Source: a virus
Reading direction: 5' to 3' (one strand)
IMG/VR virus record: IMGVR_UViG_3300010413_000034
Span: 1-58,221 of that record
DNA: 58,221 nucleotides
Of this stretch, positions 16,557 through 54,204 are shown in pieces; the stretch's first letter is position 1, and each line of letters begins with the position of its first letter. The notes below the pieces were generated by a model, which worked only from the letters and a program-made list of their open reading frames with translations, had not been told where the DNA came from and searched no databases. The translations under genes and the position numbers were made by a program.

Positions 16557-16967
16557 TTACTCCACTATCTCAAAATGTACTAGGTCATCAAAAGTATTAT
16601 CTTTATAATCACCGTCTTTATCCCAATCTCCACCGAATCTTAACTTTACTCCATGCTTTTCAGCTATAAAAAACACTATAGCTTTTAACTCATAAAATTT
16701 TACTCTATCTTTCCATTTTGCTCCCCAATTGCCGGGTATCGGCCAAGGTGCCGCGTCTACGGCTAATGAAGGATAAGAATTATGTTTACTTTGGGGAAAT
16801 TTTAATTTAGAATTTCCTTCTGTATAAGCTTTATTTTGTTCTTCTTCTGTTCGATGGCCACAAAGAATAGTACAATCATAATACTCAATTACTTCATTAA
16901 ATATATCTTGAAGTCTGGAATCACATTGCTCTAATCTAGTTTTTGATGAAGTTCCAAATTTTGGCAT
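16557..16967 (-). CDS. Endolysin, M15 family L-alanyl-D-glutamate peptidase
   Basis: The 136-residue single-domain enzyme fits T5 Lys (about 137 residues) and other phage M15 peptidases. Likely zinc ligands are H62 (SKHN), D71 (AVDAAP) and H131 (VHFEI). GHRTEEEQ (37-44) supplies the substrate-side Arg, and LRFGGDWDKDGD (109-120) matches the T5 LRFGADWNASGDY segment, which in T5 is linked to calcium regulation. It cleaves peptidoglycan stem peptides. There is no signal sequence, so release depends on the adjacent holin. Confidence 0.93.
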   Translation of the reverse strand: MPKFGTSSKTRLEQCDSRLQDIFNEVIEYYDCTILCGHRTEEEQNKAYTEGNSKLKFPQSKHNSYPSLAVDAAPWPIPGNWGAKWKDRVKFYELKAIVFFIAEKHGVKLRFGGDWDKDGDYKDNTFDDLVHFEIVE

Positions 16968-16971
16968 AATA

Positions 16972-18129
16972 TTACCTTAGTACGAGAATAAGCATTCTTA
17001 AATAACGGCATTGTACAGAAGAACCAACACCGTAAAAATCTAAATCTATAGTTCCAGTTCTGGAAACTCTAGATATACCCCAAGTACTAAACCTTTGGTC
17101 TGTATCATTATAATATGAATTATTAGTATAACTCACCTCAATTACATTAGCTTCGGCATGTTGAATTCGAAATGTAGGTTCTACAGCAGCCACATTTCCA
17201 CCAATATCTGCCCATATAAGTAGTGTTTGACCAGACGTTGTAGTAATAGAAGGTCCAGTATATATAGGTTTCCATCCACTTTCTTGATTCCAACTTATTC
17301 CTGGATCTACAAGAATATCATGAGAAGTAACTACGCAATTATTAGCAGAAGCTAATAGTCCTAAACCAGAAACGTCTGCTGTAGTTATAGCTAAACTTGC
17401 TTTAGCTGAAGCGGGAGACTGAGAGCCCCAAGAACTACCAGTCCCCACCAGAAAATATTTCCAACCAGGGGTTGTAGCTGCTATATCTACTAATCTTCCA
17501 TTATATGGCTGTGCCCCTATATTACTTACGGCACCTGCTGCAGAAGTAGCACCTGTTCCACCATTGGCTATTTGCAATGTTCCAGTAACTTGCGTTTGAA
17601 GATTTACAACATTCAAGGTAGCTAAAGCACCCAATCCTGAAATGGCGGCAACAGTATGATTATGTCCAGCAGCTGCTATTCCCGCTTCTGTATAGCTTTG
17701 ATCCTTCCATACTGCTGATGTTGAATCATATACTAATACATCTTTATTTTGTAGTGGTCCTGTTATTGAAGTATCTGTTAATGAACTTATATTATCTGGG
17801 CTACCTGCTTGAGACGGTGCACCACCATCTATTAAATTTCCCTCTGAATCTACAATAACTAGATTTCCAGGAACTAATGTACCACCCAATTTAACTACAG
17901 AAATAGCCAAAATTCCACTATCTTGTATATTTCCAAAGGTATCTGCCTGTAATAGATATCCATTTGATTCTATTCCTACTTTATCAGCCTTACTAGTAAT
18001 TAGTCCCTCAACTAATGTAGATTCTGTTGTTAAATTAGTGCCAACAGAAGTTATAAATGTACTAATTTTTGTTGGGTAATTAATATCTCCAGTTACAGGA
18101 ATAAGGCTTGTATAATTATATGTTGTCAT
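16972..18129 (-). CDS. Tail fibre protein
   Basis: This 385-residue fibre-like protein has a helical N-terminal attachment region (about 1-60) and beta-rich repeats. It carries motifs common in trimeric phage fibres: AAGHNHTVAAISGLG (about 157-171) and IANGGTGATSAAGA (about 188-201). A C-terminal beta-sandwich knob (about 265-385) likely holds the receptor-binding surface. No chaperone or autocleavage motif is visible. It lies between tail-tip genes and the lysis cassette, and its first base overlaps the stop of the upstream gene. Confidence 0.8.
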   Translation of the reverse strand: MTTYNYTSLIPVTGDINYPTKISTFITSVGTNLTTESTLVEGLITSKADKVGIESNGYLLQADTFGNIQDSGILAISVVKLGGTLVPGNLVIVDSEGNLIDGGAPSQAGSPDNISSLTDTSITGPLQNKDVLVYDSTSAVWKDQSYTEAGIAAAGHNHTVAAISGLGALATLNVVNLQTQVTGTLQIANGGTGATSAAGAVSNIGAQPYNGRLVDIAATTPGWKYFLVGTGSSWGSQSPASAKASLAITTADVSGLGLLASANNCVVTSHDILVDPGISWNQESGWKPIYTGPSITTTSGQTLLIWADIGGNVAAVEPTFRIQHAEANVIEVSYTNNSYYNDTDQRFSTWGISRVSRTGTIDLDFYGVGSSVQCRYLRMLILVLR

Positions 18130-19028
18130 TATATTTCCTCTATTTCATAATTTGCTCTATAATAATTAGGAGCAAATTCGGAATATTTTGGTATTTTTGT
18201 TAATTTTACTATCCCACTGTAATCTATTTCTTTATCTCTAGATAGATCTCCTGGGAAGCAAGACATAAAGAAATCTTTTCTTAATCCAACACTACGAAGC
18301 CCGTGCTGTATACTTATTCTACTGCTTTCTGGTATTGTATTTAAAGAAAATTGCCATTTTCTATATGGCGTTGAAAAATTTGATTTTAAACTTCCGGATT
18401 GCGTTCTATACTGTTGAGTATTCTCTTCCCAACTTAAAGAATGACCAAAAGATATATTATATGGAACCTCTATATATTCTCCTATAATTAATCGCCCAAT
18501 TTCAAAATAAGTAATTAATGAATTTGGAACATCTAGTTCCTCTACGGGATCATCTATAGATAATCGTATGACAAAAGATTTAACATTATAAACTACAGAA
18601 TCAATCCAATGTACTAAATTCTTAACTGGTTGAAATTCATCCTCCTTTATAACATCAAATCCCCAAGCATCAATACCCCATAGGAATACACCCCATGGAA
18701 GTATTTCGCTTGCTTGACTACCTTCAGTTATAAGTTGTGTTTCAGAACTATAAAGTAAATTAGAAAAACTAGTTTCCCCATATAAATTAATAGTATATCT
18801 AGTATTTAATGTAAAATTATGTGCTCCTAAAATTATAGCTGAAACAGCTTTAGAAGAGTTAAAAATTCCCTTTATTTCTATTGTGGAATTATCTACTGTA
18901 CGCATAACTTTAGCTTTAGATGAAAATTTCAAATTTTCAATATTTAATACTGGATCTGTAGTAGCTAAACTAGTAAATAATGAGGAAGTATCAACATAAT
19001 TATTTAATACAAATCTTAATTTAGACAT
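18129..19028 (-). CDS. Tail-tip structural protein
   Basis: This protein of about 299 residues follows the hub protein and precedes the fibre. I take ATG 19028 (MSKLRFVLNN), which overlaps the hub stop as TAATG and lies 10 bases after GGAGG. The ATG at 19037 would be too close to that ribosome site. The sequence is beta-rich with a WGVFLWGIDAWGF loop (about 115-127). It lacks diagnostic enzymatic motifs. The position suggests a baseplate or distal tail component that holds the fibre. The family was not identified. Confidence 0.65.
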   Translation of the reverse strand: MSKLRFVLNNYVDTSSLFTSLATTDPVLNIENLKFSSKAKVMRTVDNSTIEIKGIFNSSKAVSAIILGAHNFTLNTRYTINLYGETSFSNLLYSSETQLITEGSQASEILPWGVFLWGIDAWGFDVIKEDEFQPVKNLVHWIDSVVYNVKSFVIRLSIDDPVEELDVPNSLITYFEIGRLIIGEYIEVPYNISFGHSLSWEENTQQYRTQSGSLKSNFSTPYRKWQFSLNTIPESSRISIQHGLRSVGLRKDFFMSCFPGDLSRDKEIDYSGIVKLTKIPKYSEFAPNYYRANYEIEEI

Positions 19029-22000
19029 TATATCCATACCTCCAAAGTTACAAATTTATTTATAGGATCTTCATTAATACCTATTACTAATCCCTTTTTA
19101 CCAGATGAGAAATCAAATCTAAAATGGGTTATTTTTATTATAGAACCCACATTTATAGTTAGTGGTACAGCTGTAGCCTGTACACTATATATAAATCTTT
19201 TTTGTTTTCTTAATTGAATTCTTCTATTTGCCTCATTTAAAGCATCTTGTTTATTATATAATAATGTTTCCTGTACCTCATCTTCTTCTAGTAAAGGATA
19301 CATATCATTTATATACGTAATTGGGTTGGCAACATTTACAATCTTATATTCTGATGTAATATTTTCTAGAACTTCTAATTCTTGTTCTACAACTATACCA
19401 GCAAGAGCTCCTTTATCTTGAACAGTCCAATTTTTCTTATAGCTTAATTTTATATTCTTTTTAGGAATTTCTATGTCAGATAAAGTTAATCCGTTTTCTA
19501 GAATTTGATCTTCTGGTAGTTCTAGACTATATGGTTGTGTAGCTGGATCTTTAAATTGAGTTAATTGTACCAAATTATTTGTTTTATTAAATCTTATGAA
19601 GGCACCTACAGAAGAAGATATTTTATTTAATAACTCTTTTACCTCTTCTTCATCCTCTATATATAAGCCCATTACACTTGTATTTGGAAACCCATTTACA
19701 CCATTTGGATCAAAACTATCTGGATCAAGATTATCTATCGTAACACTTGTTTTCTCTAATAGTAACCACTCAATTAAATGTGCTGCACTATGTAAAACTA
19801 AGGAATAAGGATAAACACCAGGGGAAGTTTCAGCTAAAGAAGATCTTGTGGATTGTCCAATAACATCACAAGTAATTTGTTGTCCTAAATCATGCACTAA
19901 TAATCTAAAACAACCTTTTGATAAATCAACTTCATAATCTCCTGCATCAACTATTGCACCATTAGATCTAACTTCTGTAATAGCTTGTATACTTCCATCA
20001 TGTATTTGATATACATGGTTATATGCATCAATTAATTTAGGAGAAATATTAAAACAATATCCTAAACAGATAGGTGCTGGCGTATTTACAATACTTTCTG
20101 GTATACTAACTATATCTGGATCAAAAACTACAGGAGGAACATCTTTAGTATCTGCAGTAAATGTACTTGATGCTAAAATATTCTCTACATAAGATAATGT
20201 TATAGTATTTGATTGTACGGATACTGAAAGTATCTGGTCTTTGTCCCTAACATCAATGGTTATTTTATCAACACTACTAGAAGTAAATTTATTTATTATA
20301 CCATCAAATATTAATATAAATTGTTCTTTTGTCCATAAAGGATCTCCCAGATATATTTTTAACGGATGGCCTTCCCAACCATATTTAAGAAGTTCATCCA
20401 AATCTCCTTCTGGATTTAATAATTCAATCGCTCCAATAGTAGAAGATAAATCTATTCTAGAAGAAACTTCCGGAATATCATTTACTATTTCATCATAATA
20501 TATACTATTTACTGTATTACCATAAATATCTATAAAAGAGTCGCCCTGTTTCAATATATATGGAAAAGTACCAAAATAACCTACAGAGGTTTCGGTACCA
20601 TTATGATATCCAGCCTCTACTAAAATAATTTTATTATTATCTGTTTCTAGCCAATCTTGATTACCTGTTTTTACTAGGCCTAATAAAGTTATGGTGAAGT
20701 CTACTATTATTCCGTCTTGTGTAACTCTTACCACTATAGTATCAGACCAATTAACACTAGTAGTAATTGTATAAGTAATTATTCCGGTATTTGGGTCTAT
20801 AATAGCACTTCCAAGAGCTGGTTGGGCTGTAATACTATATACTTGAGGGCCAGTTAGTGCACTATATACTAAATCTGCAGCATTTATAAGAATTTCTGTC
20901 TCTTCACCTGGGAGCGCACTTATAGACATTGTAACATCTGGAGCATATAGCTGGGGTTCTACAGTTATATAGATATTTCCATATACTGGAGGAGATAGTG
21001 GAAATCCATCACCATAAATTTCATAAGTTGCGGTAGCAATACCACTATCTATAGTAGGAGTAAAATCTACATCAGCACCATTATTTATAATATTAAATGA
21101 GCCACCAAATATATTACTTAATGCTCCAATACTATATGTAGCAGTAGTTTCTGTTAAAAATTCCTCTGTCGTTGTTTCTGTAATTTCTTCTTCTGTATAT
21201 GTTTCAGTAATAATTCTGTTAACATTTACTACAATGTCATTACTTAATGGAGATGGTATCAATACTTGAAGACCAGTACCGGCCCCTATAGTATAAGTAT
21301 CGTTTGTTACAATTATTTGTGAATTCGGATCTTCTTCATCTTCTAAATATACATTTATTGTTACTGTTGCACTACTAAACTCTGAACTTGCATCTACTAT
21401 TTCATAAGTAAAGCTATCTTGACCAATATAATCTGTGTCTGGTTGATATATTACATAATTTGAATTTCTTATTACGTACCCATGATTTGTTCTTACTTGT
21501 ATAGGCGTAGTTTGAACAACATTATTTAACTTATATATAGTTAAATTTGTACCTATATCATTATTTAATACAAAAATATTAGTTTTAGAATTTATAGTAC
21601 CATCATACTTTGCATTTTGTGGTATTGAAGCTATATCATTATTAGCTTGAATTCCACTAATTTGAACATTAACATTTAAGTTATTTCCATAAGCAAATCC
21701 ATCATAAACAGTCAATACAAAAGAGTCAAAAAAGTTGCTAGAATTATCATGTGTATATTCTATCCCTGAACTAGTTATAGAAAGAGAACCATGAGCAGGT
21801 GCCACACTTTGTGCATATACTAAAGTGTCGCCATCAGCATCTGCAGCCCAGGCACTTCCTGTACTTAAACCTGTAGGAATCGATAATCCGGTTTTAGGAT
21901 TTACAAAAGTACTTCCACCCTTGCTAGCTTTCAAAAATACATTAGAAGCTGGTACAGGTAAAGTATTTCCTAATGTTCCTGAAACCACTCCTGTAGCTGT

Positions 22001-25000
22001 ATTATTTAACGAATCTCTTAAAGTATAAGTATATGAATAACTTCCAACATTTGATCCTGGATCAAATAATATTGTAGAGCCATTTGTTGTAACAGTACAG
22101 TTTAATGTATTCCAACTACCTGTTGGCTGCTGTATTGTCACTGTTCCACCAGTAGGATTTGTAAAATAACCTAATGCTAAAATATCATGAGTTATTTGAG
22201 CACTATTATGCTTTACAATACCAAAATCCGCATCTCCATCAATAGTTGCCTGAGTAATTGTTATCCCAGTAGTTCCACCAGAGGCTTGTGTTATATTATA
22301 ATTATCTAATGTTAGCGCACTTGTTCCTATATTGGTAACATACCAACCAGTATATGGTAAATTACATATTTCTAAAGTACCACCAGTTCCACCACCCAAA
22401 CAATCTATATTAGTTGGACATTGCATCCATCCAGAAACTCCACCTACAGCATTTATTCTATCTAATACACTAGTTTGTTTCCACCAAGTGCCATTCCAAC
22501 AAGCGTGTGTAATTCCATGGGCTGGATCCATTACCCAATTCCATAGATCTTCTTCTGTATCATTATCTAATGCAGAAGCACTACCTATAGTACTTTGTAC
22601 CAGATCACCCACATAATTATCATAGATATAAAGTTGAAAAGGAGTTGGACTTCTGCCACCAAAATCTGTATGTAAATCCGCCTCTTTAATAGCTCCTCCA
22701 TTAGCAACCATATAATCTACTAATTCAGGAATTAGTGTTGAACTAGTTCCTGCATCATTAATAAAGTTACCTCCTAAAGCATACCAATGATTTGGAACTG
22801 CTGCAACGCCTGCATCTAATTGACGCTTTAACTGTGCAACATACCCTTCTGGACTATAATTTGGATCAGAAGGCTCGCAGCCAAAGCCTATAGAAGATTC
22901 TCCTCCCTGTAAACCCTCAAAAAACGGTTTTCCATTCATATGAGCACCTACAGCCTGTATAAGTGCTATATATCTATCCATTAAATTAGAGTTCCATAAA
23001 ACCGCGCAAATACCTCTAATTATACAAACCCCGTCTTTAGTTTTGTGTGTAACCCAATATCCACCGCCATAAGTTGGACTTTCTAAGTAAGTAGGTAATA
23101 CAGTATTATTTGGATTATTTTCCTCAAAATGCCTATCCCTTAGTTCTATAATAGAATATTTACCTTGTGCAGCTAAATAGTTATAATTTTCATCTAATTT
23201 TGTGAAATCATACGCTGTTCCAGCATCATTTTCTATTTCATTCCATGCAATTTCCCACATTACACCAATAACATTAGGTTCACTAAATATCCAAGCCCAA
23301 TCTTCCTTAATTTGATCTGTCCAAGCTTTTACATAATGACCTGGATGAAAACTTTGCGCACCAGCACCACCAGGAGGTTCGGGCTGTGAAAATGTTCCTA
23401 TAGAAATATCATCTATTAAAACTTTTCCTATATTATTAGTTGGATCCCAATCAACTTTTACATTTATTTGGCCAATAGGAATAGGTATAGTCCAAGGACC
23501 ACCTAGTTGTGTCCTTAAACCTCCTGCATCAAAATGATTGACAACAATTCTTCCATTACCACCATTTATTCTAACTTCTATAGCTTCTGCTGAAGATGCA
23601 TCAAAGTCTGTAATATTAGTTCTACATGGAAATATTTTTATAGTATTATTTAAATCATTTTTAAAATCTAAATCTACAGATAATACTCTATCTGTAGTAG
23701 CTTTTGAATTTATATATGCACCGACATCTGCTGCTGTATGTGTTACTCTATTTGCACTTACAACTACACTTCCTGTATCTGTAGTTGGCGAAGTTGCTAT
23801 TCTATTTTCCATATTTAATGGAATTATCGTATTTATTGGCTTTCCTGCTGCGATAAGAGCAGCATTACCATCCATAACATTACCATTTATATAACTTTTA
23901 ACCCAAGCAACAAAATTATAATCTCTATCATCTATACCTTGAACTATTTCCTGAGCTGTTATTCCTGGAAATTTGTTATTTGTTAGAGCGCTGACAGTAA
24001 CGCATCTAGCCATATGATTCTTTGGTGGTGTGCGATAATTTGAATCAAATATTAATTGAGCCGTGGTTCCATCAGTGGTAGGAAAAAAATCTGGTTCGTA
24101 TTGCCCACAACCAGCACTATAATAAGCCGGTATAATTATGCTCTCTAAATCATTTCCATGATTTGCACCTATCATAGTAGGAATTTTCGGTAGATATTCT
24201 ACTGAGGCATTATATACTCTTTCTTCTTGTCTATACTTTTCACCATTACTTACAGCAATATCAAAATCCGATGGGACTATACCCTTAAAACCCTCTGCAG
24301 ATTCTGCAGTTATTACACCTACAATAGTGTCTTCATTCTGATACTTAATAGAGAATTGCCTTAGTAATTCAATATATCTATCTTGCACAACAGGGTCCCA
24401 AAATCTTGCAATAAATCCATTTTTAGTGCAAGCAACCCCATAATACCCATTTGTAGTTATACTTGGTCTATCAAACTGATAATTATCACTGAATCCATAT
24501 TTTTGATTAGTTAATATATATCTTGGAATAGTTCCTACTGGTGTTGTTATGCTAAAATCTCTATTATTAAACGAAACTATTAATTTTTTATTATGTGGTT
24601 TTAAAAAATTAACAAATAAATCTATCAAAGACCAATCGTATACACCTTCAACATTGTCCTCAAAATTACCCCAAACACTATTCATTAATACACCATCTAA
24701 TTGATCTGTATATTCTGGATCAAAAATGAAAGAATATGCATCTGGTATATTATCATTATCTTGTTGCTTTATAAAATGACCAGGTTGCCAATTTAAGGTA
24801 ATTGGAGTAGTGGGTGTGCTCAGATTACTTGGTCTATCTGTATGAATAAACCAATTATTGTCTTCTAAAACAGGTATAATTCCAGTATAAAAATCCCAAT
24901 TTGGATCACCATCAAATTTAGTATTCCAAAAAATAACATTACAACTTAAACTATTTATTGCAACATCATATGCAACTGCAGGTCCTGCACTTGCGATCCT

Positions 25001-28000
25001 ATCGGCTCGCTGATTTTCTATTGCTAATGGTATTCTTCCAGCAAATTCTGGGTATAATTCATATGCTTGAGTTTTTGGTAGTCCATCACCATCTAAATAA
25101 GTATCAAATAAATCTGGGCCAGAAATTCCTCCTCCAATAGACTCCATATTTTCAAAAATAGATAACATTCCTGGTTCATCTGAGCTAATAAAATTAGCTA
25201 ATTGAAGTGCAGGAGTTTTTGGAAAATGAGATGCTAAAGACTTTTCTGTTTCTATTAACCCTGTTAAATATTCCTGCGGTGTAGGAGTAATATCTGCTGG
25301 TGGATTAGATAAAGCGGTTTCATCTAAAGAAATAAATGAAATTCTATCATCATTATCATATGCTTCACCTAAAGCTCTGAATAAATTATCTACTTTTTCT
25401 CTAACCCATGGCTTCCAAATAGCTACCGCTAATTTTGGATCTGGAGTAGAGCTACCACTTAAATAATAATATGCACCAGGATCATTAGGGTGATCAGGAT
25501 TTGGTGGAGATAGCCACACATTATCCATTGCATCGTATACACCTAACCAATCTGGAGCTGCAGTATATTCTAATTTACTAAAATTATGCTCTTTAATTCC
25601 AATCATTATTAGGCTTCTTTTACCATTACCGGTCTGCCATAAAGATTGTACATCTGCCTCTATTTCTGAAAAGTCAAAAACTCCCTCGGTTGGCTCTAAG
25701 TTTTTCCAGAAAAACTTTAATTTTGCACCAACAAATTGATCATATTGAGCAATTTTATTTTTTGCATCATTAGTTTCTCCTTGCATTACATAATGCCCAG
25801 GATACCATTTTTTAACTGTAGAACTAGTAGTTCCAACAGAAGCTTTCCACGAATTTCCAGACACAGATTCAATTTGGCCATTTAAATAGCCATTAGTTTC
25901 AAAAGTATCATTAACTAATGTAGCTCCCGTCCCTGTGCTAGCCTGACTTATATTTACAGATACTGTTGTAGTACTACTTAAATCATTAATAGAATCATAT
26001 GCAGTATATGTAAACCTAGCTTCTCCTATAAATCCTGCTAATGGTTCGAAGTCAACTACAGTATTATCACCAGCGTTAATTTTTGTATTTGTTTGATGAC
26101 ACCCTATTCCAGGAATTACAGAACTAACTATAAGCCCGGTAGGAGGACTAGAACCATTTATATCTATATCATTATCTAATACTGCTAATTGTAGTGGCCA
26201 GGTAGTATTGTTAGGGTATGCGTATACATTTGGTCTAGCTAATATTCCTTCTACTGTTGCTGCTTGCCATGCACCTATATTTAAATAATTAGATAGACGT
26301 ACAGGATCCCCCGAATTCCATGTAATCGGAGAATCTACATCTATTTGATTTGTGCTATAATTTATTGCTAATATATTTACTGGAGAATTATTTCCAATAG
26401 TTATTATATCTGGTTGTACAGTTATTCCATCCACGGATGAGATAATCCCGCCTGTAGATGCTCCTCCATCATGAAACCAAGAAGCATCTGCTACTGTAAT
26501 TTTTGTCCCTGTTCCAGAATTTACTGTATTTGTTTCTTCTTCTGCACTTAAATAAGCTGGAGATGAAGAACTTATTTCAAATGTGTCTAAGGTTACATTT
26601 ATAGATGGACTACCTACAGTTCCTGATGTTACCAAATATGGCGAAAGAGAATTAACAAATCCAGGAGTATCAGATTGTATATTTCCACTAACATTCGTTC
26701 CAAATGTTGTTTCTAAATTAGTAATAGTATCTACATCTGTTATAGAAAATGCAACTTCACAATTTGCTGGCAACAAATTGCTTATAATTTTATTATTCCC
26801 AAACTTATCTAACCCTGCATAGGTAATTAAATCAACTAAATATATAGGATAAGACTTATACGGAGAAGATGTTAAATTAGATCTTGCATTTAATGGGGAT
26901 AGTACTACATTATTAACTATATTATTTTTAAATATATTTCCCGTTTCTGCTATAGACCCTGGCTTGTTGTTAGCAAGAAGACCCCATCCAGATCCATTTA
27001 TATAAGCTATTGTGTTATGAGATATTCTCATATTAGTAGCTGGAGCTGAAGCTGCGGATCCGGTAGTAGAAGTTATAGCTTGTCCAGCTTTGTGATCGAA
27101 AACAACATTTCCTCTTGCTATAGTTTGATTTCCAGATAGTTTTAGCGCTTCTACGTCTGCATTATCTATACTTCTGGCAGTATGTTGTATTACATTTTTA
27201 ATAAATCTATTTCTAACACCTGTATTTGTTCCTCCTGCTGTTCCTGAGCTGCCTATGTCTGCCCCAAGATTACCAGCATAATCTCCAGCCAGTAATTCTC
27301 CTATAGCAGTACCTATATATTCCCAGTCATTCCTTATAGAATTTTCTAAAATAAAACAATCATGCCCTTTAATATCTATACATCTACTACCACCCCAATG
27401 TAAATTATTCTTATACAACACTAATCTTTTTGCTTCTGCTGCGGAATTAGAATATATATGCACTCCAGTATCTGTTAATGTAAGGTCTGGATTTGTAATT
27501 TTCCAATTACCAACATAAGATAAATCACAATATAAAAACTGGCAATCTGAGTGTGGACCAGTTTCATGTATAGAACCTATTACTGATCCACCAGTATTTG
27601 CATATACTAAATGCTTACCTATACAATTATTGGTATTTCCAAGTACAATATTAGCTTCTGGTAAATTTGATGAAGGAGCCAAAAATGTACCGTCTAATTT
27701 AATACCACTTACAGTAACAAAATCTAACCCACTAAAATCTATGCAAGGTTGTGGTGCAGATGAAAAATCAGGAAACGATGATTTATGTGTTCCAGTAACT
27801 TCTTCATCTGCCACCCCATCTAATACATTAGCAACTATTCTAATTCTTGTAGTATCACTAGTGCCGCTTTTTACTGGCTTAATTCTACTAGTAAAAGATC
27901 CAGTTAAAAGATAGGCTGTATCTCCTGGACTAATATTAGAATTCATTACTGCTATTGAACACGGATTTCCAGCGCTAGAACTATTCCAAGCTGCGGTTCC

Positions 28001-28027
28001 GTTTTGTGATACCCAATTTGTTGCCAT
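19028..28027 (-). CDS. Giant fusion: beta-helix, three glycosidase-like barrels, beta-sandwich repeats, tail hub
   Basis: At 2999 residues this is the largest gene here. Residues about 1-590 look like a right-handed parallel beta-helix (stacked Asn/Gly turns such as NNLHWGG and SHNTIAYINGS). Cadherin/VCBS-like repeats occur at about 600-690 and 1930-2440 (LDNDID, FTYTAYDS, DSFTYEIVD). Three diverged TIM-barrel glycosidase-like modules begin YPGHYV (about 737-1070), QPGHFI (about 1077-1405) and HPGHYV (about 1559-1875), with a LamG-like domain at about 1405-1550. Each barrel has a strand-end Glu (LDETAL, TAESAEG, GGESSIG). Residues about 2450-2999 resemble a siphovirus hub, with YQIHDGSIQAITEVRSNG. 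It follows the tape measure, the usual hub position. Start: ATG after AGAGGAAAAA. Confidence 0.8.
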   Translation of the reverse strand: MATNWVSQNGTAAWNSSSAGNPCSIAVMNSNISPGDTAYLLTGSFTSRIKPVKSGTSDTTRIRIVANVLDGVADEEVTGTHKSSFPDFSSAPQPCIDFSGLDFVTVSGIKLDGTFLAPSSNLPEANIVLGNTNNCIGKHLVYANTGGSVIGSIHETGPHSDCQFLYCDLSYVGNWKITNPDLTLTDTGVHIYSNSAAEAKRLVLYKNNLHWGGSRCIDIKGHDCFILENSIRNDWEYIGTAIGELLAGDYAGNLGADIGSSGTAGGTNTGVRNRFIKNVIQHTARSIDNADVEALKLSGNQTIARGNVVFDHKAGQAITSTTGSAASAPATNMRISHNTIAYINGSGWGLLANNKPGSIAETGNIFKNNIVNNVVLSPLNARSNLTSSPYKSYPIYLVDLITYAGLDKFGNNKIISNLLPANCEVAFSITDVDTITNLETTFGTNVSGNIQSDTPGFVNSLSPYLVTSGTVGSPSINVTLDTFEISSSSPAYLSAEEETNTVNSGTGTKITVADASWFHDGGASTGGIISSVDGITVQPDIITIGNNSPVNILAINYSTNQIDVDSPITWNSGDPVRLSNYLNIGAWQAATVEGILARPNVYAYPNNTTWPLQLAVLDNDIDINGSSPPTGLIVSSVIPGIGCHQTNTKINAGDNTVVDFEPLAGFIGEARFTYTAYDSINDLSSTTTVSVNISQASTGTGATLVNDTFETNGYLNGQIESVSGNSWKASVGTTSSTVKKWYPGHYVMQGETNDAKNKIAQYDQFVGAKLKFFWKNLEPTEGVFDFSEIEADVQSLWQTGNGKRSLIMIGIKEHNFSKLEYTAAPDWLGVYDAMDNVWLSPPNPDHPNDPGAYYYLSGSSTPDPKLAVAIWKPWVREKVDNLFRALGEAYDNDDRISFISLDETALSNPPADITPTPQEYLTGLIETEKSLASHFPKTPALQLANFISSDEPGMLSIFENMESIGGGISGPDLFDTYLDGDGLPKTQAYELYPEFAGRIPLAIENQRADRIASAGPAVAYDVAINSLSCNVIFWNTKFDGDPNWDFYTGIIPVLEDNNWFIHTDRPSNLSTPTTPITLNWQPGHFIKQQDNDNIPDAYSFIFDPEYTDQLDGVLMNSVWGNFEDNVEGVYDWSLIDLFVNFLKPHNKKLIVSFNNRDFSITTPVGTIPRYILTNQKYGFSDNYQFDRPSITTNGYYGVACTKNGFIARFWDPVVQDRYIELLRQFSIKYQNEDTIVGVITAESAEGFKGIVPSDFDIAVSNGEKYRQEERVYNASVEYLPKIPTMIGANHGNDLESIIIPAYYSAGCGQYEPDFFPTTDGTTAQLIFDSNYRTPPKNHMARCVTVSALTNNKFPGITAQEIVQGIDDRDYNFVAWVKSYINGNVMDGNAALIAAGKPINTIIPLNMENRIATSPTTDTGSVVVSANRVTHTAADVGAYINSKATTDRVLSVDLDFKNDLNNTIKIFPCRTNITDFDASSAEAIEVRINGGNGRIVVNHFDAGGLRTQLGGPWTIPIPIGQINVKVDWDPTNNIGKVLIDDISIGTFSQPEPPGGAGAQSFHPGHYVKAWTDQIKEDWAWIFSEPNVIGVMWEIAWNEIENDAGTAYDFTKLDENYNYLAAQGKYSIIELRDRHFEENNPNNTVLPTYLESPTYGGGYWVTHKTKDGVCIIRGICAVLWNSNLMDRYIALIQAVGAHMNGKPFFEGLQGGESSIGFGCEPSDPNYSPEGYVAQLKRQLDAGVAAVPNHWYALGGNFINDAGTSSTLIPELVDYMVANGGAIKEADLHTDFGGRSPTPFQLYIYDNYVGDLVQSTIGSASALDNDTEEDLWNWVMDPAHGITHACWNGTWWKQTSVLDRINAVGGVSGWMQCPTNIDCLGGGTGGTLEICNLPYTGWYVTNIGTSALTLDNYNITQASGGTTGITITQATIDGDADFGIVKHNSAQITHDILALGYFTNPTGGTVTIQQPTGSWNTLNCTVTTNGSTILFDPGSNVGSYSYTYTLRDSLNNTATGVVSGTLGNTLPVPASNVFLKASKGGSTFVNPKTGLSIPTGLSTGSAWAADADGDTLVYAQSVAPAHGSLSITSSGIEYTHDNSSNFFDSFVLTVYDGFAYGNNLNVNVQISGIQANNDIASIPQNAKYDGTINSKTNIFVLNNDIGTNLTIYKLNNVVQTTPIQVRTNHGYVIRNSNYVIYQPDTDYIGQDSFTYEIVDASSEFSSATVTINVYLEDEEDPNSQIIVTNDTYTIGAGTGLQVLIPSPLSNDIVVNVNRIITETYTEEEITETTTEEFLTETTATYSIGALSNIFGGSFNIINNGADVDFTPTIDSGIATATYEIYGDGFPLSPPVYGNIYITVEPQLYAPDVTMSISALPGEETEILINAADLVYSALTGPQVYSITAQPALGSAIIDPNTGIITYTITTSVNWSDTIVVRVTQDGIIVDFTITLLGLVKTGNQDWLETDNNKIILVEAGYHNGTETSVGYFGTFPYILKQGDSFIDIYGNTVNSIYYDEIVNDIPEVSSRIDLSSTIGAIELLNPEGDLDELLKYGWEGHPLKIYLGDPLWTKEQFILIFDGIINKFTSSSVDKITIDVRDKDQILSVSVQSNTITLSYVENILASSTFTADTKDVPPVVFDPDIVSIPESIVNTPAPICLGYCFNISPKLIDAYNHVYQIHDGSIQAITEVRSNGAIVDAGDYEVDLSKGCFRLLVHDLGQQITCDVIGQSTRSSLAETSPGVYPYSLVLHSAAHLIEWLLLEKTSVTIDNLDPDSFDPNGVNGFPNTSVMGLYIEDEEEVKELLNKISSSVGAFIRFNKTNNLVQLTQFKDPATQPYSLELPEDQILENGLTLSDIEIPKKNIKLSYKKNWTVQDKGALAGIVVEQELEVLENITSEYKIVNVANPITYINDMYPLLEEDEVQETLLYNKQDALNEANRRIQLRKQKRFIYSVQATAVPLTINVGSIIKITHFRFDFSSGKKGLVIGINEDPINKFVTLEVWI

Positions 28028-28036
28028 TTTTTCCTC

Positions 28037-31000
28037 TTATAAAATTTTAGCTGTAGAAGCTAAAGGATTTCTAATTTTATTTCTATCTCTAGAAACCTGT
28101 ATTAATTCTTTTCCTTGGTCTAGTAAATCTTCCTGACTTACTGCGACCACATCGGTAAGAATCTTTATTGCATTTATAATATCTGAATTATCTGAATCAG
28201 TTGTCGTATTATTTGTTATATTAGTACTATTAGCAAGTACGGATTCCCCCGATCTAATACTTTCTGCCGTTTTTCTAGGAAGTATAGTTTCGCCTTTATG
28301 AATCATTGCTAACTGATCTGCATCTACTTCTTGGGTGCCAGAAGCAAATGAGTTTAGCCCTCTTAATACTTCTAGTATTGGAACCCATGTTGAATCATTC
28401 AAACTTTGTAATTTATCTGTTATAAAATCTAAATGAGGAATTAGTAATTCACTTAATTGTTCTATATCAGAAACTAAAGTTGCTTGCTGCTGTTCCTCTA
28501 ATACATAGAGTATTGAATCTAATACTTGCAATTTTTCAATTGTTTCTAGTTGTAATGTGGATAAAATATCTGTCTGCTCATTTATTGCAACGGCTTCCTC
28601 AGATAAATTTATTCTATCTAATAAAGATTCATCAACTTGTTTTAGTGCGTCTGTGACACTGACAAATAAATCTCTATAACCACTAATAGAGAAAAATTCT
28701 GAAGCTATATTTAATAAAGTTTCTGCACTACTTATAAGATTATCTGCAGCTGCTGCCGATATATCTGTATCAGTAGAAAATATACCATCAATATTTTCAT
28801 AAAATTGTCTTGAAGCTTCAGCTAATCTTTCTGAATTAGTTAAAGGAGATAAATCCCCAACTAAAAGTTCATCTAAAAACTCATTAATGCTATCAGATAG
28901 TTCTTTAAATCTATTTATAGTATTTTGTATTTCTTGTTGTTCTATATTATATCTTTCTATAACTGCATCTTTAAGTTCTAGTACTAGATCTATTTGTTCA
29001 GTTATATTGGTAGGTACGGAATCAAATATTGTAAATAAACCTTCGAAAGTATCTAAAAAGGTTTCTTCGTCTATTACATCATTTAAGTTGGAAAATACAG
29101 AAAAATCTATACCAGAAGCTATAGAGCCTAATCCAGTCTGTAAAGATTTGCTTAATTTTTCTAGTTTTATTCCTAAGAATATTACATCATTCCATTGATC
29201 AAATGAAGATAAAAATGAATTAGTTGCTTTCTGCAGATCTATAGTTGCACTTTTTATTTCATCTAGAGCTTCTTGATTATAATCTTTTATAATTTTTAAT
29301 CTTTCTAGCCCAAAAATTTTCTCAACTAGTGTAATATCTGCGCCTTCATCTATAGCTTCTTGAATTGCGTCTTGAAAATCAAATTCTAAAGCTAATAAAT
29401 CTAATTCTTTTCCTAATAAGCCAAATAATTCTATTTGTCTAGTATATTGTAAATTTAACTCCTCAGCTCTAGAAGTTAATTCTTCTGCTGTTTCTTCTGC
29501 TGCTTTTAATGCCGCCCCTAATTGAATAACAATAGCTAATAAATCTGCTCCAGAAGTATCTATTTCTCCAGTAGCTGTATTAACTCTAGCAGTAAATGTA
29601 TCTGTAGCTAAGGCTAAATCATAAAATGCTCTCAGACTTTCTGATGTATCATCTGCTAAAGTACTTAATAAATCTTCTCTTCCAGCATTGGCTAACTCGG
29701 TTCTTAATTCAGAAAAGCCGACACTTACAATTCCTCTAGCTCTTTCTAATGCTAATTCTGTTAGCTCTGCTTCAGAAAATATACTACTTGCGAAATCCTC
29801 AAATAATTGATCTAATTCATCAAAATCTTTAAAACTAGAAGTAAAGGCTTCTTGCCAAGATGCTAGTATTTCTAATTTTAGTTGCTCAGAACCAGTTACT
29901 TTAGCTACATCACTTAAATCAAGGTTTATACTACTAAAAATATCACTTATATTTAATGTTTGTTCTGTTAATCTAATTAAAGTATCTGTTAATTCTTCCC
30001 CGGCCTGCGAAAACTTGGTAAGAAATGGAAGCGCTGTACCAATTACTTCATTGCTTAAATTACTAAAGAATGCTGCTATAGCATCTGCTTGTTCTTCTGC
30101 AGATTTTCCAACTAAATCTATTCTTATTGGATCAATATTAATAGTACCTAAACTGCTAAATAATTCTACTAAATCTACCTCTACAGCAGATCCAAAAGAA
30201 GAAATTAGTCCTGTAATTACAGTAGTTGTATTATCTAATGAGCTTTGTAGCTCTCTAGCTACGTCTGCTGGTAAATCTTTAAATGACTCTTCTAATCTTA
30301 CTTTTGTTTTTGATCCTATCCCAAATACACCGCTTTTAGTTTTAGTAACCTGTAAAACTAAGAAAGCCCTAGCCTCTTCTGCAGAAGCTATTATTTCATC
30401 ACCAACAAAAGTTATAGCTGCACCTAATTCATATCCAGCACTAATAAGCTCTCTGGTTTTGCTAGTACTTCCTAGCCCAAAGAAATCTGAACTTCCTCCA
30501 GAATTAAAGGATACACCAAAGAAATCAGCAACATCTAAAGTTTCAAAACTACCACCCGCCTTAAAGGAAGCTGCACCTAAGCTCTTAAAAGTATTACTAA
30601 GTTCAATAATAGCTAATTGTAAATCTCTATTTGCACTAAATAGTTCAGTATCTATTTCAACTAAAGAATCTATAGAATCTACTAATGAATTAGTTTGTAA
30701 ATCAATTCCATATAGACCTTGAGTACCTATGTTCTCTCTATATCTATCTCCTGCGCCGGCTCCTGAGATTCCGGAACTTCCAAAAGATACACCTATTTGA
30801 CTAAGTAAGGCTGCCGCAGCTGATGCCATTGCTGCCATTCTAGCAAATGCAGAGAAAGGGTCTCCTTCTCCTTGGGTTAATACAGCATTAACAGCACTGA
30901 CTAAAGCTAATCCTGTCTGTGCAACTTTTAGTATTTCTGCAGCTTTAGATCCTTCTCCTAAAGCTTGTGCGATGGAACCCATTGCACCAGAGGCAAATTC

Positions 31001-34000
31001 TAAAGTAGTGGCTAATCTATCTTGTGTAGTTTTTAAATCCTCTCCAAATTGGTTAGTTAGAGTAGCTAAATTAGATAAACCAACTGCTGCTTGTGATCCT
31101 GAAGCTACTGCTATCTTATTAATAGCTAATAATCCTGCTTGAAATTTAGCTAATGAATCTTCTTCACCTAATTTTGCTATGTTTTCTCTTAGCTCCTTCA
31201 TTGCATCAGAAAATTCAGATACAGAATCTAATGATGAAGATAATTGATTTTGTATATCTAATTTTAATGATTCTTTGTTTAATAATCTAATTGCCTCTAT
31301 AGCTTCGTCTGCTTTTTCTAAATTGTCTTTTCCTACAGCTTCTTGTTTTTCTGCAGCTTTTTCTCGAAGTTCTAAATCTAATTGTGCTGCTTTTGTTAAT
31401 CTTAAACCGGCAGCTAAATTAGCTAAAATAGATTTTCTTTCTATATCTGCTTTTTTTATTGTTGCTGCCAATTCTGTTTCAACTATGGCTAATCCACCTT
31501 CTCTCGCGGCGTTTACTTGCTTTGCTAATTGTAAAATAAGTTGGTTATATTTAACCGCAGCTTCCCCTTTAATATCTCCCCTTTGTAAAGCTTCAGATAC
31601 TTCTAAAATTTGTCTTTCAGCAATTGCTTGCTTTAATAAAAATTCTCTATCTAATCTATCATCCATAAGAGAATTAAATTCTCTTAAATATTCCTGCTCT
31701 ATTTTATAAGATTTAATAGTGTCTTCTATATTAATTATATCCGCAGCTACACCTTCTGCAGTCACCGGAACGCGAACAGATAATTTAGTAGATTCTATTG
31801 ATGACTGCAATGCCTCTATTAACTTCTCTTTTGTATCCTCAGCAGCAAAAGAAATATTTTTTAACCTATCTTCTATTATAGATAATACTTCAATACTAGA
31901 TTTTTGTGCTATTATACCAAGACCTTCTGATTTAGCTACATTATCTAATTCTTGCATAAGATCTTTTATTTCACTAATTCTAGATTGATCTAGTTTTAGC
32001 AAGTCTTCTTGTAGGGATTTTTCTAATAATAATTTTTCTCTTCTGGAAGTTTCTAACTGAGATCTAGCCCTATTTATGTCATCAATAGTAGATGCACTAT
32101 CTTGTAATATTTTATTATTTTCATTTATAGTTTCTTTTGTCTGTGCATATAATCGTGTATTATATGAATGTTGTGCATTAAATAAATCTTCTTCTATTTT
32201 TCTAGTGATATTTAGTAATTTTATTCTTTCTTGTAAGTCTAAGTTTGGGTTTAATTTCTTAAGATTTAATGAATTAATAGCTTTATTATAATTTTTTTGT
32301 GCATTTATTAGATTTTCATATATTGATATAGAACTACCCAATTTTTCATTAACATCTTCTACAGCTATCCCAATAATCTTTTGTAGAGCTTTCATAAATG
32401 CTAATAAGTCTTCGAAAGATTCTCTTACTTCATTATATCTTTCACTCCATTCAATAACATTTTTAACTCCAGCTTCTGCAAATATAGCATCACGTCTAAG
32501 TTTAGCATTATCTCCTTCTCTTACATCAATTGCGTTTATCTTATCTCGTAATGCTTGAAATCTAGCCCATTCTATTGATGCTGCTGAAAGTTCATCTGTA
32601 GTTTTCTTTAATTGTCCACCTAATTCACCTAATACACTTATTTCCTTATCTAAATTGAGAGCTTTAGCTTGTGATTCAGATAACCTATCATATCCACTTG
32701 CTAACAACTGCACACTAGTAATATTATCTTCTAATGAATTTACTATATCAGATAAATTGGTTATATCTAAGAATAAATTTTCTACCTTATCTAAATTACT
32801 TAATCCTACTATGTAGTCTGAAGTTGATTTCTGAAGATCATCAAAAGATTGACCTATTTGTTCAGTTCCATATAAGAGTTCACTTGTGCTTTTTTGCCCC
32901 TTAGTTCCTAATTTTTCTAATTCAGCACCTAATCTTTCTAATTCTTTTGTAGTTAGTGCACTAACTGTAGTAAAATTATCAAAAGACTTTAATAATTGTG
33001 CTATTTCAGGGCCTAATCCACTACGCCTAAAAGCACTTAGAGCTTGCTCTACTTGTTTTCTATAATTAACTAAATCTCCAGCTAGTCCAAAAGAAAGACC
33101 TGCAACTAGTTCATCTATAGTTCCGAAACCATCGGAACTTTTTAATGCTGTATTTAAAGAATCTAAGGTATTAGTGATTTCAGTTAAAATATTTTTCTGG
33201 GCTGTTAATTTTTTATTTGTATTATCCAAAGTAGCTGGTAAATTTGATAGATTTTTCTCATAATTGACTATAGTTTTATTTATTGTTTTCATGGTTTCAG
33301 AGCTCTCATCTAAAACCTTATTAAATTCTTCTGATTCTTCACTTATTAAGCCTAGCCACCTAGCTGCAGTACTTAGAGCTCCACCAAAAACTTCCCAGGC
33401 TATCATCAAAGTTCCAACTACAGGAATTAATTTAAATACACCTCTTAACACACTACCAAAAGCCCCAGATAATTTTAATAAAGCTAAGCTAAGAGCCTGC
33501 GTGGTTTTCCCAACTATAATTTGATCTCTAGCCACTTCTTTAAATTTTATACTTAGACTATTTGCTGCAGAGGCTACATTAGACAAGCCTCCTTGAAGAC
33601 CGGCAAAAAATCCTGTAGATAATCCAGCTTTAACACTTGTAGTAAATATAGCTACACTTCTTGCTGATTTAGTCATACTCGCTGAAATAGTAGCTCCAAA
33701 TAAAGTATATTTTTCTGTAGCTATCCCAAGAGCTGCACCAGCTTTTGATCTTATATCTTGTAATTCTACTATAGTTTTTCTTAGTTCTGGTGTAAGTTTT
33801 TGATTAGAATTAGCAATATCCTTTAAACTTTGATCAGCAGCTTCAAAAGCTCTTTGAACTTTTTCTTCACTATCAATAAAATCTCCAGAAAAAATACTTC
33901 CCAGATTTTTTGTTATAGCTTCTGCTTCATCACTTGATATTTCTGATAATATTTGTAATGGTTCAGCTATAAAATGTATAGCTTCATCAAAATTAATATC

Positions 34001-35062
34001 TTTAAATGTTTCAACAAAATCTTTTGCTATTAAGTCTCCAAATAAATCTACATTTAATTTAGAGAATTTCTGATCTACAACATTTTCTATAGTATTACCT
34101 AGAGCATTTATAGCTGGTATAGCCGCCTGCAAAACCTTATTAGAAAATAATACTATAGCACCAGTTAATGCAATTGTATTCTCTGCAAAAAAAGATAAAA
34201 ATCCACCTATTGGTATATTTACTAATTCAATTAATTGTGTAGCTATAGTTTGAAAATTTGCGGCAAGTACACTATATTGATTTACCGGAATATCTCCAAA
34301 TTCCTCAAATTTTTCGTTTCCTTGAGCTAAAACTTCATTTACTATAGCTTGCTGTTTTTCAAATGTAGTTAATTCTTTTGCTGTTTTACCTAATTCTGCT
34401 GCATATTTTTTAGTTGCTGGTTCTAATCTAAGTATAATACCTAATTCGTCTAATAATTCTGGTTCTGCTTTAATAGCACCCCTAAAAACACGGTTCAAAG
34501 AATCAGTTAAGTCTCTACCTAGTGCTACAGAAGCATTTCGAGAAACTTGAGTTAGTTGTTCTATAGTAGAATTATCGAAACCAGCAGAGGCAGCTATAGA
34601 AGCACTTTGTAATGCTTCTTTCATATTAATTGCACCACCAGTAATTTCTCTCATATTTTTAGCTAAACCTATTAGAGATCGTCCTGTTTGAGTAGCTAGA
34701 GTTTCTGCGGATTCAATTAATATAGTAAAATCGGCAGCCCTTTCAAGAGCGCCGAATGCAGCAGTTAAGGCAAAAACATTAGCAGCTACTGTAGCATATG
34801 CTGGGACAAGTGTGCCCTGCATACCTTGAGCCATTTTTGAAAATGCCTTGGTAGAGTTGTTAGTTGCGTTAGCAGCACCTTTTTGGTTCCTATCATATTC
34901 GCCAATAGTTTTGCTAGCGGTTCTATGTCCTTTTGTAACCTTGTCTTGTGCTACAGTTTGTTTATTTAGAGTATCAGATAATACTCTTAATTGTGCTGTA
35001 GTTTGTGCAAGATTTTCTGCAATTACTTTTAAAACATATGTTTGTGTAATCTTTTTTGCCAT
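28037..35062 (-). CDS. Tape measure protein
   Basis: This 2341-residue protein sets tail length and probably helps DNA cross the envelope. It is mostly alpha-helical with long heptad-like stretches. Its N-terminus contains the tape-measure segment with ALERAADF, ETLATQTGR and AASIAASAGFDNSTIEQL (about 110-175). Hydrophobic regions occur at about 285-315, 540-570 and 1390-1440. Near the C-terminus is MIHKGETILPRKTAESIRSG (about 2264-2283), a motif typical of tape measure ends. No peptidoglycan hydrolase motif was seen. It is about twice the length I recall for T5 pb2. Its ATG overlaps the chaperone stop as TAATG. Confidence 0.93.
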   Translation of the reverse strand: MAKKITQTYVLKVIAENLAQTTAQLRVLSDTLNKQTVAQDKVTKGHRTASKTIGEYDRNQKGAANATNNSTKAFSKMAQGMQGTLVPAYATVAANVFALTAAFGALERAADFTILIESAETLATQTGRSLIGLAKNMREITGGAINMKEALQSASIAASAGFDNSTIEQLTQVSRNASVALGRDLTDSLNRVFRGAIKAEPELLDELGIILRLEPATKKYAAELGKTAKELTTFEKQQAIVNEVLAQGNEKFEEFGDIPVNQYSVLAANFQTIATQLIELVNIPIGGFLSFFAENTIALTGAIVLFSNKVLQAAIPAINALGNTIENVVDQKFSKLNVDLFGDLIAKDFVETFKDINFDEAIHFIAEPLQILSEISSDEAEAITKNLGSIFSGDFIDSEEKVQRAFEAADQSLKDIANSNQKLTPELRKTIVELQDIRSKAGAALGIATEKYTLFGATISASMTKSARSVAIFTTSVKAGLSTGFFAGLQGGLSNVASAANSLSIKFKEVARDQIIVGKTTQALSLALLKLSGAFGSVLRGVFKLIPVVGTLMIAWEVFGGALSTAARWLGLISEESEEFNKVLDESSETMKTINKTIVNYEKNLSNLPATLDNTNKKLTAQKNILTEITNTLDSLNTALKSSDGFGTIDELVAGLSFGLAGDLVNYRKQVEQALSAFRRSGLGPEIAQLLKSFDNFTTVSALTTKELERLGAELEKLGTKGQKSTSELLYGTEQIGQSFDDLQKSTSDYIVGLSNLDKVENLFLDITNLSDIVNSLEDNITSVQLLASGYDRLSESQAKALNLDKEISVLGELGGQLKKTTDELSAASIEWARFQALRDKINAIDVREGDNAKLRRDAIFAEAGVKNVIEWSERYNEVRESFEDLLAFMKALQKIIGIAVEDVNEKLGSSISIYENLINAQKNYNKAINSLNLKKLNPNLDLQERIKLLNITRKIEEDLFNAQHSYNTRLYAQTKETINENNKILQDSASTIDDINRARSQLETSRREKLLLEKSLQEDLLKLDQSRISEIKDLMQELDNVAKSEGLGIIAQKSSIEVLSIIEDRLKNISFAAEDTKEKLIEALQSSIESTKLSVRVPVTAEGVAADIINIEDTIKSYKIEQEYLREFNSLMDDRLDREFLLKQAIAERQILEVSEALQRGDIKGEAAVKYNQLILQLAKQVNAAREGGLAIVETELAATIKKADIERKSILANLAAGLRLTKAAQLDLELREKAAEKQEAVGKDNLEKADEAIEAIRLLNKESLKLDIQNQLSSSLDSVSEFSDAMKELRENIAKLGEEDSLAKFQAGLLAINKIAVASGSQAAVGLSNLATLTNQFGEDLKTTQDRLATTLEFASGAMGSIAQALGEGSKAAEILKVAQTGLALVSAVNAVLTQGEGDPFSAFARMAAMASAAAALLSQIGVSFGSSGISGAGAGDRYRENIGTQGLYGIDLQTNSLVDSIDSLVEIDTELFSANRDLQLAIIELSNTFKSLGAASFKAGGSFETLDVADFFGVSFNSGGSSDFFGLGSTSKTRELISAGYELGAAITFVGDEIIASAEEARAFLVLQVTKTKSGVFGIGSKTKVRLEESFKDLPADVARELQSSLDNTTTVITGLISSFGSAVEVDLVELFSSLGTINIDPIRIDLVGKSAEEQADAIAAFFSNLSNEVIGTALPFLTKFSQAGEELTDTLIRLTEQTLNISDIFSSINLDLSDVAKVTGSEQLKLEILASWQEAFTSSFKDFDELDQLFEDFASSIFSEAELTELALERARGIVSVGFSELRTELANAGREDLLSTLADDTSESLRAFYDLALATDTFTARVNTATGEIDTSGADLLAIVIQLGAALKAAEETAEELTSRAEELNLQYTRQIELFGLLGKELDLLALEFDFQDAIQEAIDEGADITLVEKIFGLERLKIIKDYNQEALDEIKSATIDLQKATNSFLSSFDQWNDVIFLGIKLEKLSKSLQTGLGSIASGIDFSVFSNLNDVIDEETFLDTFEGLFTIFDSVPTNITEQIDLVLELKDAVIERYNIEQQEIQNTINRFKELSDSINEFLDELLVGDLSPLTNSERLAEASRQFYENIDGIFSTDTDISAAAADNLISSAETLLNIASEFFSISGYRDLFVSVTDALKQVDESLLDRINLSEEAVAINEQTDILSTLQLETIEKLQVLDSILYVLEEQQQATLVSDIEQLSELLIPHLDFITDKLQSLNDSTWVPILEVLRGLNSFASGTQEVDADQLAMIHKGETILPRKTAESIRSGESVLANSTNITNNTTTDSDNSDIINAIKILTDVVAVSQEDLLDQGKELIQVSRDRNKIRNPLASTAKIL

Positions 35063-48039: not shown

Positions 48040-48372
48040 TTATGCTATTGTTCCTTGTCTAATAACTACTCTGTCAAAATACGTCTCTTTAGAGCCATCA
48101 TCTATTTGTATTTCTAAAGAGGCTGGGCCTTCGTAAGTTACATTTATTGTATCTGCTGAGGCCCACTCTATTACTATTAGTGAATTTGCCCAATCTGCTC
48201 CTGTTTGAGACGGAGTACATGTAGTAATTGGAAAAATTTCTTGTTTATTTGAAGATATAATTTTTGCCTCTACTGTAGCTGCAGGATTTATAGTAAAGGT
48301 TTGTTCTTTACCTATTATACCCTTTCTTAATTGTACAGAAAACGATATATCGTCACCTGTTACTATATCCAT
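48040..48372 (-). CDS. Small beta-rich structural protein
   Basis: This 110-residue protein is predicted all-beta: DISFSVQLRKG (about 8-18), ATVEAKIISS (about 32-41), SLIVIEWASADTINV (about 64-78) and ASLEIQIDDGSKETYF (about 83-98). It resembles small upper-baseplate or fibre-base domains that pair with adhesins. It sits between the two large adhesins, sharing one base with the upstream stop. It may be an adaptor or chaperone for them; that is inference from position. Confidence 0.6.
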   Translation of the reverse strand: MDIVTGDDISFSVQLRKGIIGKEQTFTINPAATVEAKIISSNKQEIFPITTCTPSQTGADWANSLIVIEWASADTINVTYEGPASLEIQIDDGSKETYFDRVVIRQGTIA

Positions 48373-53355: not shown

Positions 53356-54204
53356 TTATGCAAATAATAATTGTTGTCTACTATCTAAATATCCCATCTC
53401 TATCATCATATCTTCGTGATGTGATATTAATTTTTCTTCTTGTTCTGAAGTTAATATCTCTTTCCAATATCCAGAAGTTCCTTTACTAAAAAAGCTATCT
53501 TGAAAATCGCTTTTTTCCATAAAACCATCATTTTCTTCTTGCTTTTTAACCCTAGAAAATTCACATAGCTTTAAAGCATTTTTAACTCTCTCTTCTTCTA
53601 CAGCTAAATTTAATCCAGTTAATATCCTCGAAAAAGATTTAACTGGATTTAATAACATATCTTCATATCGTACTATAGTAACTGGGAATCTGTCATCTTC
53701 TAACCAAGATCTAACATGATTGCTCCAAGAACCAACAAAATGTACTACATTAGACTCTTCTCTATTTAATCCATAATCATTATAATTTATTAAATCTATT
53801 GATTCATCTATAGTTTTTCCCATATGTTTGGATATACTTATTACCATATCTCTAGGATCTCTAACTAAATAAACTGCTGACTTAGTTAATTCTTTTGGTA
53901 TTAAGGTTATACCATTAACTGCTTCATTTCTATTATGTGTTTTAAAGATTGTTGGATTTTTTGTAGAAGTTGCTGCTTGATTTAATAAGGCACCCGGTCT
54001 AAAAAATACTGCTGCTCCAGGCTCAAATTTATCTATTGGTAATGAGGCGCAGTTTTGATATTCAGAAACTTTAATATCGGTAATAGTTACATTTAATTTA
54101 TTTATATCTAAATAACCATCCGAGTATGCTTGCACAAATAATCTAGCCCAGGTATTTCCGGATTTTGGGTAGGATGCTAGCCAATGTACTCTTCTGACTA
54201 ACAT
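53356..54204 (-). CDS. PAPS-dependent sulfotransferase
   Basis: The 282-residue protein has all main motifs of cytosolic-type sulfotransferases. The 5'-phosphosulfate loop is SYPKSGNTWAR (about 11-21). KTH (about 88-90) carries the probable catalytic His. The 3'-phosphate site is YLVRDPRDMVIS (about 113-124). RYEDMLLNP (about 179-187) and the C-terminal SKGTSGYWKE (about 240-249) complete it. It would transfer sulfate from PAPS to a hydroxyl or amino group on a sugar, lipid or small molecule. There is no signal peptide, so it acts in the cytoplasm. It is embedded in the late operon between small structural genes. The substrate is unknown. A glycan linked to the adjacent adhesins or to the host surface is one idea. 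Confidence 0.9.
   Translation of the reverse strand: MLVRRVHWLASYPKSGNTWARLFVQAYSDGYLDINKLNVTITDIKVSEYQNCASLPIDKFEPGAAVFFRPGALLNQAATSTKNPTIFKTHNRNEAVNGITLIPKELTKSAVYLVRDPRDMVISISKHMGKTIDESIDLINYNDYGLNREESNVVHFVGSWSNHVRSWLEDDRFPVTIVRYEDMLLNPVKSFSRILTGLNLAVEEERVKNALKLCEFSRVKKQEENDGFMEKSDFQDSFFSKGTSGYWKEILTSEQEEKLISHHEDMMIEMGYLDSRQQLLFA

Follow-up and report, generated by a model that had tools for sequence, protein, structure and literature searches.

The window analysed here is a virus record of the IMG/VR kind, 58,221 bases long, from an uncultivated phage of siphovirus type, and it holds an intact open reading frame (ORF) of 2,999 amino acids, P0001, at positions 19028-28027 on the minus strand. 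P0001 probably combines, on one chain, a C-terminal baseplate hub of the T5 pb3 type with a glycan-directed N-terminal appendage of 2,450 residues. A first-pass annotation of the same DNA had given the coordinates and length exactly, whereas the strand had to be corrected to minus; the plus strand was rich in stop codons over this interval. The ATG start of P0001 was preceded by AGAGGA (28032-28037, minus strand), which resembles a ribosome-binding site (RBS) and overlaps the stop of the tape-measure ORF (28037-35062, minus strand; 2,341 amino acids). The start lay 9 bases past that ORF, confirming the proposed location of the gene directly after the tape measure, and the relatives showed the same arrangement. 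At its 3' end P0001 overlapped the downstream gene at 18129-19037.

The C-terminal hub domain

Residues 2452-2999 (19031-20674, minus strand) almost certainly form a baseplate hub, as judged from PHROG matches, relatives and a predicted structure. Residues from about 2498 to 2998 matched phrog_8917, a family without assigned function, with an E-value of 1e-52, and the C-terminal region of about 548 residues was 24-45% identical to stand-alone hub ORFs of related viral contigs. The AlphaFold2 (AF2) model of the hub, built from a 16-row alignment, had a predicted local distance difference test score (pLDDT) of 85.6 and a predicted template modelling score (pTM) of 0.84. When residues 2450-2999 were compared with PDB by Foldseek, ranks 1 to 5 were all pb3 of T5/DT57C (7zhj, 7zqp, 8hqz and 9ioz), with E-values of 3.8e-18 to 1.2e-14 and template modelling (TM) scores of 0.61-0.64. 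These were followed by contractile-system and VgrG-type hubs and those of JBD30, RcGTA, Chi and T4 gp27 (1k28, E 2.6e-5), and the Foldseek matches showed a gp27/pb3 fold with two tail-tube-like domains. The first-pass annotation had likened the last 550 residues to a siphovirus-type hub, and since structure prediction and fold search recovered a gp27-type match, that assignment stands.

No tblastn match to the hub sequence was found in 50,697 phage records, and the hub profile reached neither pb3 nor any other solved hub structure in PDB. As pb3 was undetectable by sequence, the hub is to be regarded as a structural homologue only. It also differs from pb3 in that the latter carries C-terminal FNIII domains, and we know of no pb3 with an N-terminal extension of the kind seen in the window.

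Hub relatives and genomic context

Scans of viral contigs with the hub yielded 6 and then 16 loci, partly overlapping, together with one locus in a bacterial metagenome-assembled genome. In every related viral contig where the hub ORF was complete it stood alone (462-673 amino acids), began within about 10 residues of the homology start, which corresponds to residue 2452 or so of P0001, and followed the tape measure wherever that gene fell within the locus. The gene order in the relatives was tape measure, hub, phrog_8610-type gene and fibre. Compared with the related contigs having a complete hub ORF, the 2,450-residue extension was present only in the window; it was absent from 17 related records, and the barrels described below were absent from 16 of these by profile.

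The surroundings of P0001 were likewise T5-like. The terminase of the window shared 52% identity with its counterpart in Vibrio phage VspSw_1 (Demerecviridae, T5-like), and the tape measure, whose N-terminal part is related to T5 pb2, matched T5-like pb2 across 10-14% of its length. Unlike in T5, the hub came directly after the tape measure with no gene of Dit size between them. VspSw_1 has a 207-aa gene between its tape measure and a 957-aa tail protein, and no counterpart was found in the window or the relatives. The 302-aa gene 3' of the hub (18129-19037, minus strand; phrog_8610), which has a related counterpart at the same place in the aligned relatives, may be a candidate for the Dit role. 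In two related loci (L003 and L007) the phrog_8610-type neighbour of the hub was interrupted by a long insertion absent from the window, which indicates that different tail-tip genes are elaborated within this virus group. The next gene, at 16972-18129 on the minus strand, encodes a putative tail fibre of 385 amino acids with weak PHROG tail-fibre matches.

Continuity of the reading frame

P0001 is very likely a genuine single reading frame. The frame ran uninterrupted from the modules into the hub, and no ATG, GTG or TTG with an RBS that could serve as a separate hub start was found near residue 2452, so the claim that both parts belong to a single polypeptide held. Codon usage of each P0001 domain correlated with that of the other late genes at 0.88-0.98, compared with 0.81-0.99 for single-gene controls. 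Such agreement does not prove continuity, yet no trace of a join was seen. Together, the lack of an RBS-bearing start at the junction, the continuous frame and the uniform codon usage make an assembly join unlikely.

The fusion was seen in one contig only and the relatives carry the hub alone, as would be expected if separate spike and hub genes had been joined by an assembly artefact or a stop codon had been lost through sequencing error. However, frame, codon usage and late-gene order were continuous across the junction, a separate hub gene would have required the very start and RBS that are missing there, and the 5' end of P0001 has an RBS of its own directly after the tape measure; we therefore consider an artefact extremely unlikely. 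Cleavage after translation, by which the 2,450-residue part would be released or kept as a non-covalent spike and the virion hub would consist of the C-terminal 548 residues, is rather improbable. Relatives with a complete hub ORF do have a separate hub protein that begins at the same place, but the junction offers no alternative start, and neither a protease domain nor an autocleavage motif was recognised in the chain.

Domains of the N-terminal extension

Residues 1-590 (26258-28027, minus strand) contain repeated N-x-I and N-N-x-I rungs and, from this sequence pattern only, were assigned a putative beta-helix-like fold. Searches of Pfam, NCBIfam, PDB, phages and viral contigs with this stretch found nothing, PHROGs gave no meaningful match, and it was not found in 398 genomes. 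It is followed by a bacterial immunoglobulin-like (Ig) domain of the Big_9 type at about residues 609-692 (25952-26203, minus strand; PF17963, E 5e-7). Tandem Big_9/cadherin-like Ig domains lead into the hub at about residues 1880-2449 (20681-22390, minus strand; Pfam Big_9 E 4e-19, NCBIfam tandem-95 E 1e-11). The beta-sandwich repeats of the earlier reading thus corresponded to Pfam Big_9 Ig domains, which matched the extension with an E-value of 8e-19.

Three glycosidase-like (beta/alpha)8 barrels lie between these Ig regions, all on the minus strand: barrel 1 at residues 735-1080 (24788-25825), barrel 2 at residues 1074-1407 (23807-24808) and barrel 3 at residues 1553-1876 (22400-23371). 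A probable beta-sandwich separates barrels 2 and 3 (residues 1403-1550; 23378-23821, minus strand), with a weak match to phrog_15260 (E 1e-4). The idea that barrels 1 and 2 were inserted inside one beta-sandwich was unsupported, the phrog_15260 E-value being 9e-5 with the flanks joined and 5e-5 unjoined.

A family profile matched all three barrels (E 2.5e-100, 5e-87 and 1e-81); as the profile includes the three copies, these values show only that all three are full length. Barrels 2 and 3 were 26% and 19% identical to barrel 1. Among named families the extension gave weak glycosidase matches below the curated cut-offs (Pfam GH42, E 0.04; NCBIfam GH35, E 0.03, the GH35 match falling in barrel 2), and no carbohydrate-binding module family was matched in P0001 in Pfam or NCBIfam. 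The AF2 model of barrel 1, built from 13 rows, was of moderate confidence (pLDDT 70.5, pTM 0.77). Its best Foldseek matches in PDB were enzymes of glycoside hydrolase (GH) families GH35, GH5, GH14, GH42 and GH10, with E-values from 1.3e-8, and its best viral fold matches in BFVD were named glycoside hydrolases. The gpJ-type tip attachment protein A0A6J5SE07, which we know here by name and fold match only, also matched the barrel fold in BFVD.

The ends of the strands are the usual location of TIM-barrel active sites. In the barrel 1 model, E778, E903, N945 and D972 of P0001 (E44, E169, N211 and D238 of barrel 1) lay at the C-terminal ends of strands 2, 4, 5 and 6, and these residues were invariant in all 13 family rows, the three window copies included. 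Apart from such positions the 13 rows were too diverse to serve for a pattern scan. The E/E/N/D arrangement points to an active site that each of the three copies has retained. The (beta/alpha)8 barrel resembles known clan GH-A members in the AF2 and Foldseek comparison.

Barrel relatives in bacteria and a prophage

When the profile was made from the three window barrels alone, it retrieved exported-looking proteobacterial proteins with E-values down to 9.5e-31. This three-copy profile matched 10 of the 398 genomes across a phylum, and an enlarged profile had matches in about 29 of 100 genomes from a single bacterial family, that of genome G392, with up to 14 copies per genome. The members had signal-peptide-like N-termini. 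These sequence comparisons place the barrels in a family of exported-looking proteobacterial proteins that has no name. One genome contained two members amid glycosyltransferase-, sulfotransferase- and galE-like genes (read from ORF starts), a related genome had a member adjoining a sulfotransferase-like ORF, and one ORF of 1,236 amino acids joined a Big_9-like stretch with a barrel. The phage itself carries a sulfotransferase gene (53356-54204, minus strand; PF00685, E 2e-26), and sulfotransferase-like ORFs were also present near the bacterial barrel genes at L039 and L058.

A prophage of G392, the genome with the two members just mentioned, encodes a 493-aa tail-module protein with the same barrel (L038:9924-11405), downstream of a TMP_3 tape measure; its N-terminal stretch matched phrog_6034 and phrog_10241. 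As this tail module carries the barrel independently, phage tail modules have acquired it on at least two occasions. The findings point to a locally expanded bacterial barrel family from which phages have drawn repeatedly. Viral-contig scans with barrel 3, the beta-helix stretch, barrels 1 and 2 together, the three-barrel alignment or the bacterial barrel alignment found no relatives, and neither did tblastn searches of the phage records with the barrels, the beta-helix stretch or the prophage barrel protein.

Proposed function and alternatives

The appendage of P0001 is quite likely glycan-directed. Like pb3, the presumed hub trimer would seal the tail tube beneath the tape measure. By analogy with hub trimers, three appendages bearing up to nine barrels would hang from the tail tip, and on the same analogy the nine barrels and three beta-helices of the first-pass annotation are plausible. 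The appendages would attach to host capsule or exopolysaccharide and probably degrade it, and the virion could thereby reach the outer membrane while the tube is still closed. We lean slightly towards catalytic activity of the barrels, given the modelled fold and the residues kept at the strand ends. A further-reaching proposal is that the hub trimer is a multi-enzyme machine, in which nine active barrels from a glycoside hydrolase family not yet described (with a Glu/Asp pair at strands 4 and 6) and three beta-helices are covalently fixed to the tube-closing hub. This is doubtful; if true, polysaccharide cleavage could be mechanically linked to tail opening.

Several results weigh against a glycan-cleaving appendage fused to the hub. 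The extension had no relatives in the viral contigs or phage records searched, and evidence for the fusion comes from one contig. The Asn-Glu of clan GH-A at the end of strand 4 was missing, the Glu being present in 13 of 13 rows and the preceding residue variable and never Asn. The Glu nucleophile expected where strand 7 ends was missing as well: the aligned column was mostly Gln, the columns beside it hold a few Glu so that an alignment shift is possible, and the barrel family has an invariant Asp at strand 6 instead. As the canonical GH-A signature is lacking, enzyme activity of the barrels is putative only. Of the earlier claim of three glycan-active glycosidase-like barrels, the fold and the three full-length copies were upheld, and the canonical catalytic signature was not found.

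The same lack of the strand 7 Glu and of the strand 4 Asn-Glu is what an adhesin would show, that is, barrels and beta-helix that bind polysaccharide without cutting it, and we hold this alternative to be tentatively possible. It is favoured further by a non-catalytic beta-amylase (7upv) among the top fold matches, and the tail-tip sites of RcGTA and R4C have been described as binding sites (PMC7296036, PMC10276861), for which such a role was proposed. Nevertheless, all three copies retain E, E, N and D at the strand ends despite having diverged to about 19-26% identity, which binding alone would not obviously demand. That the barrels attack peptidoglycan like a tail-associated lysin, instead of capsule or exopolysaccharide, is very unlikely, since the fold matches were of galactosidase, xylanase and glucanase types and not lysozymes. 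Moreover, a 136-aa gene elsewhere in the window (16557-16967), which had no Pfam match, resembles a peptidase-type endolysin.

Comparison with known tail-tip proteins

Addition of carbohydrate-binding modules to siphophage Dit and Tal proteins ('evolved Dit/Tal') is established, and depolymerases are normally found on side spikes, apart from the tail core. P0001 resembles evolved Dit/Tal in having putative glycan-binding modules added to a core tail-tip protein; unlike P0001, these carry small binding modules rather than tandem glycosidase-like barrels and have been described mostly in phages of Gram-positive hosts. Clan GH-A glycosidases (GH35, GH42, GH5 and GH10) and GH14 share with the barrels the fold and weak profile matches, but these matches are below curated cut-offs and the canonical catalytic residues are not conserved.

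In the baseplates of roseophage R4C and RcGTA, the megatron occurs in three copies and possesses peripheral as well as carbohydrate-binding regions (PMC10276861, PMC7296036), and the hub plus megatron of the gene transfer agent (GTA) align well with pb3 (PMC10038345). As a control, the R4C megatron gp16 gave GTA_TIM (E 2e-115) before Phage-tail_3 (E 9e-20) on one chain. Neither Pfam family matched the window protein, nor did BLAST show similarity between it and the R4C megatron beyond chance. RcGTA g15 and R4C gp16 resemble P0001 in having a TIM barrel upstream of a hub domain on one chain and, as proposed for P0001, carbohydrate-binding parts and a trimeric baseplate. They differ in that they have one barrel, of another Pfam family, and divide the hub between two proteins; if hub plus megatron are placed on pb3 as in the published alignment, their barrel would precede the second tube domain, whereas those of the window would precede the first. 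Hubs are also known to vary through translational fusion, and the gpJ-like hub Jersey gp32 has an N-terminal addition, which unlike that of P0001 is a small domain with no assigned role (PMC13243795).

As the megatrons and Jersey gp32 have already been described, the principle is known, and the assertion that no described phage hub has this architecture had to be narrowed accordingly. Within the reach of our searches, the size of 2,450 residues, the three barrels of a different family, their position before the first domain of the hub and the single-chain T5-type hub are new. An enzyme-like array fused directly to a tube-closing hub would illustrate to what extent hubs can be remodelled, and P0001 would offer a testable case of sugar recognition or cleavage coupled to tail opening.

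Other genes of the window

Upstream of the terminase, a 1,573-aa protein (48372-53093, minus strand) with many degenerate 'GSITTTSSIAGTADRIQTHTAS' repeats had no family match. A head maturation protease and a major capsid protein appeared to be fused in a 638-aa ORF at 39821-41737 on the minus strand, where both PHROG types matched.
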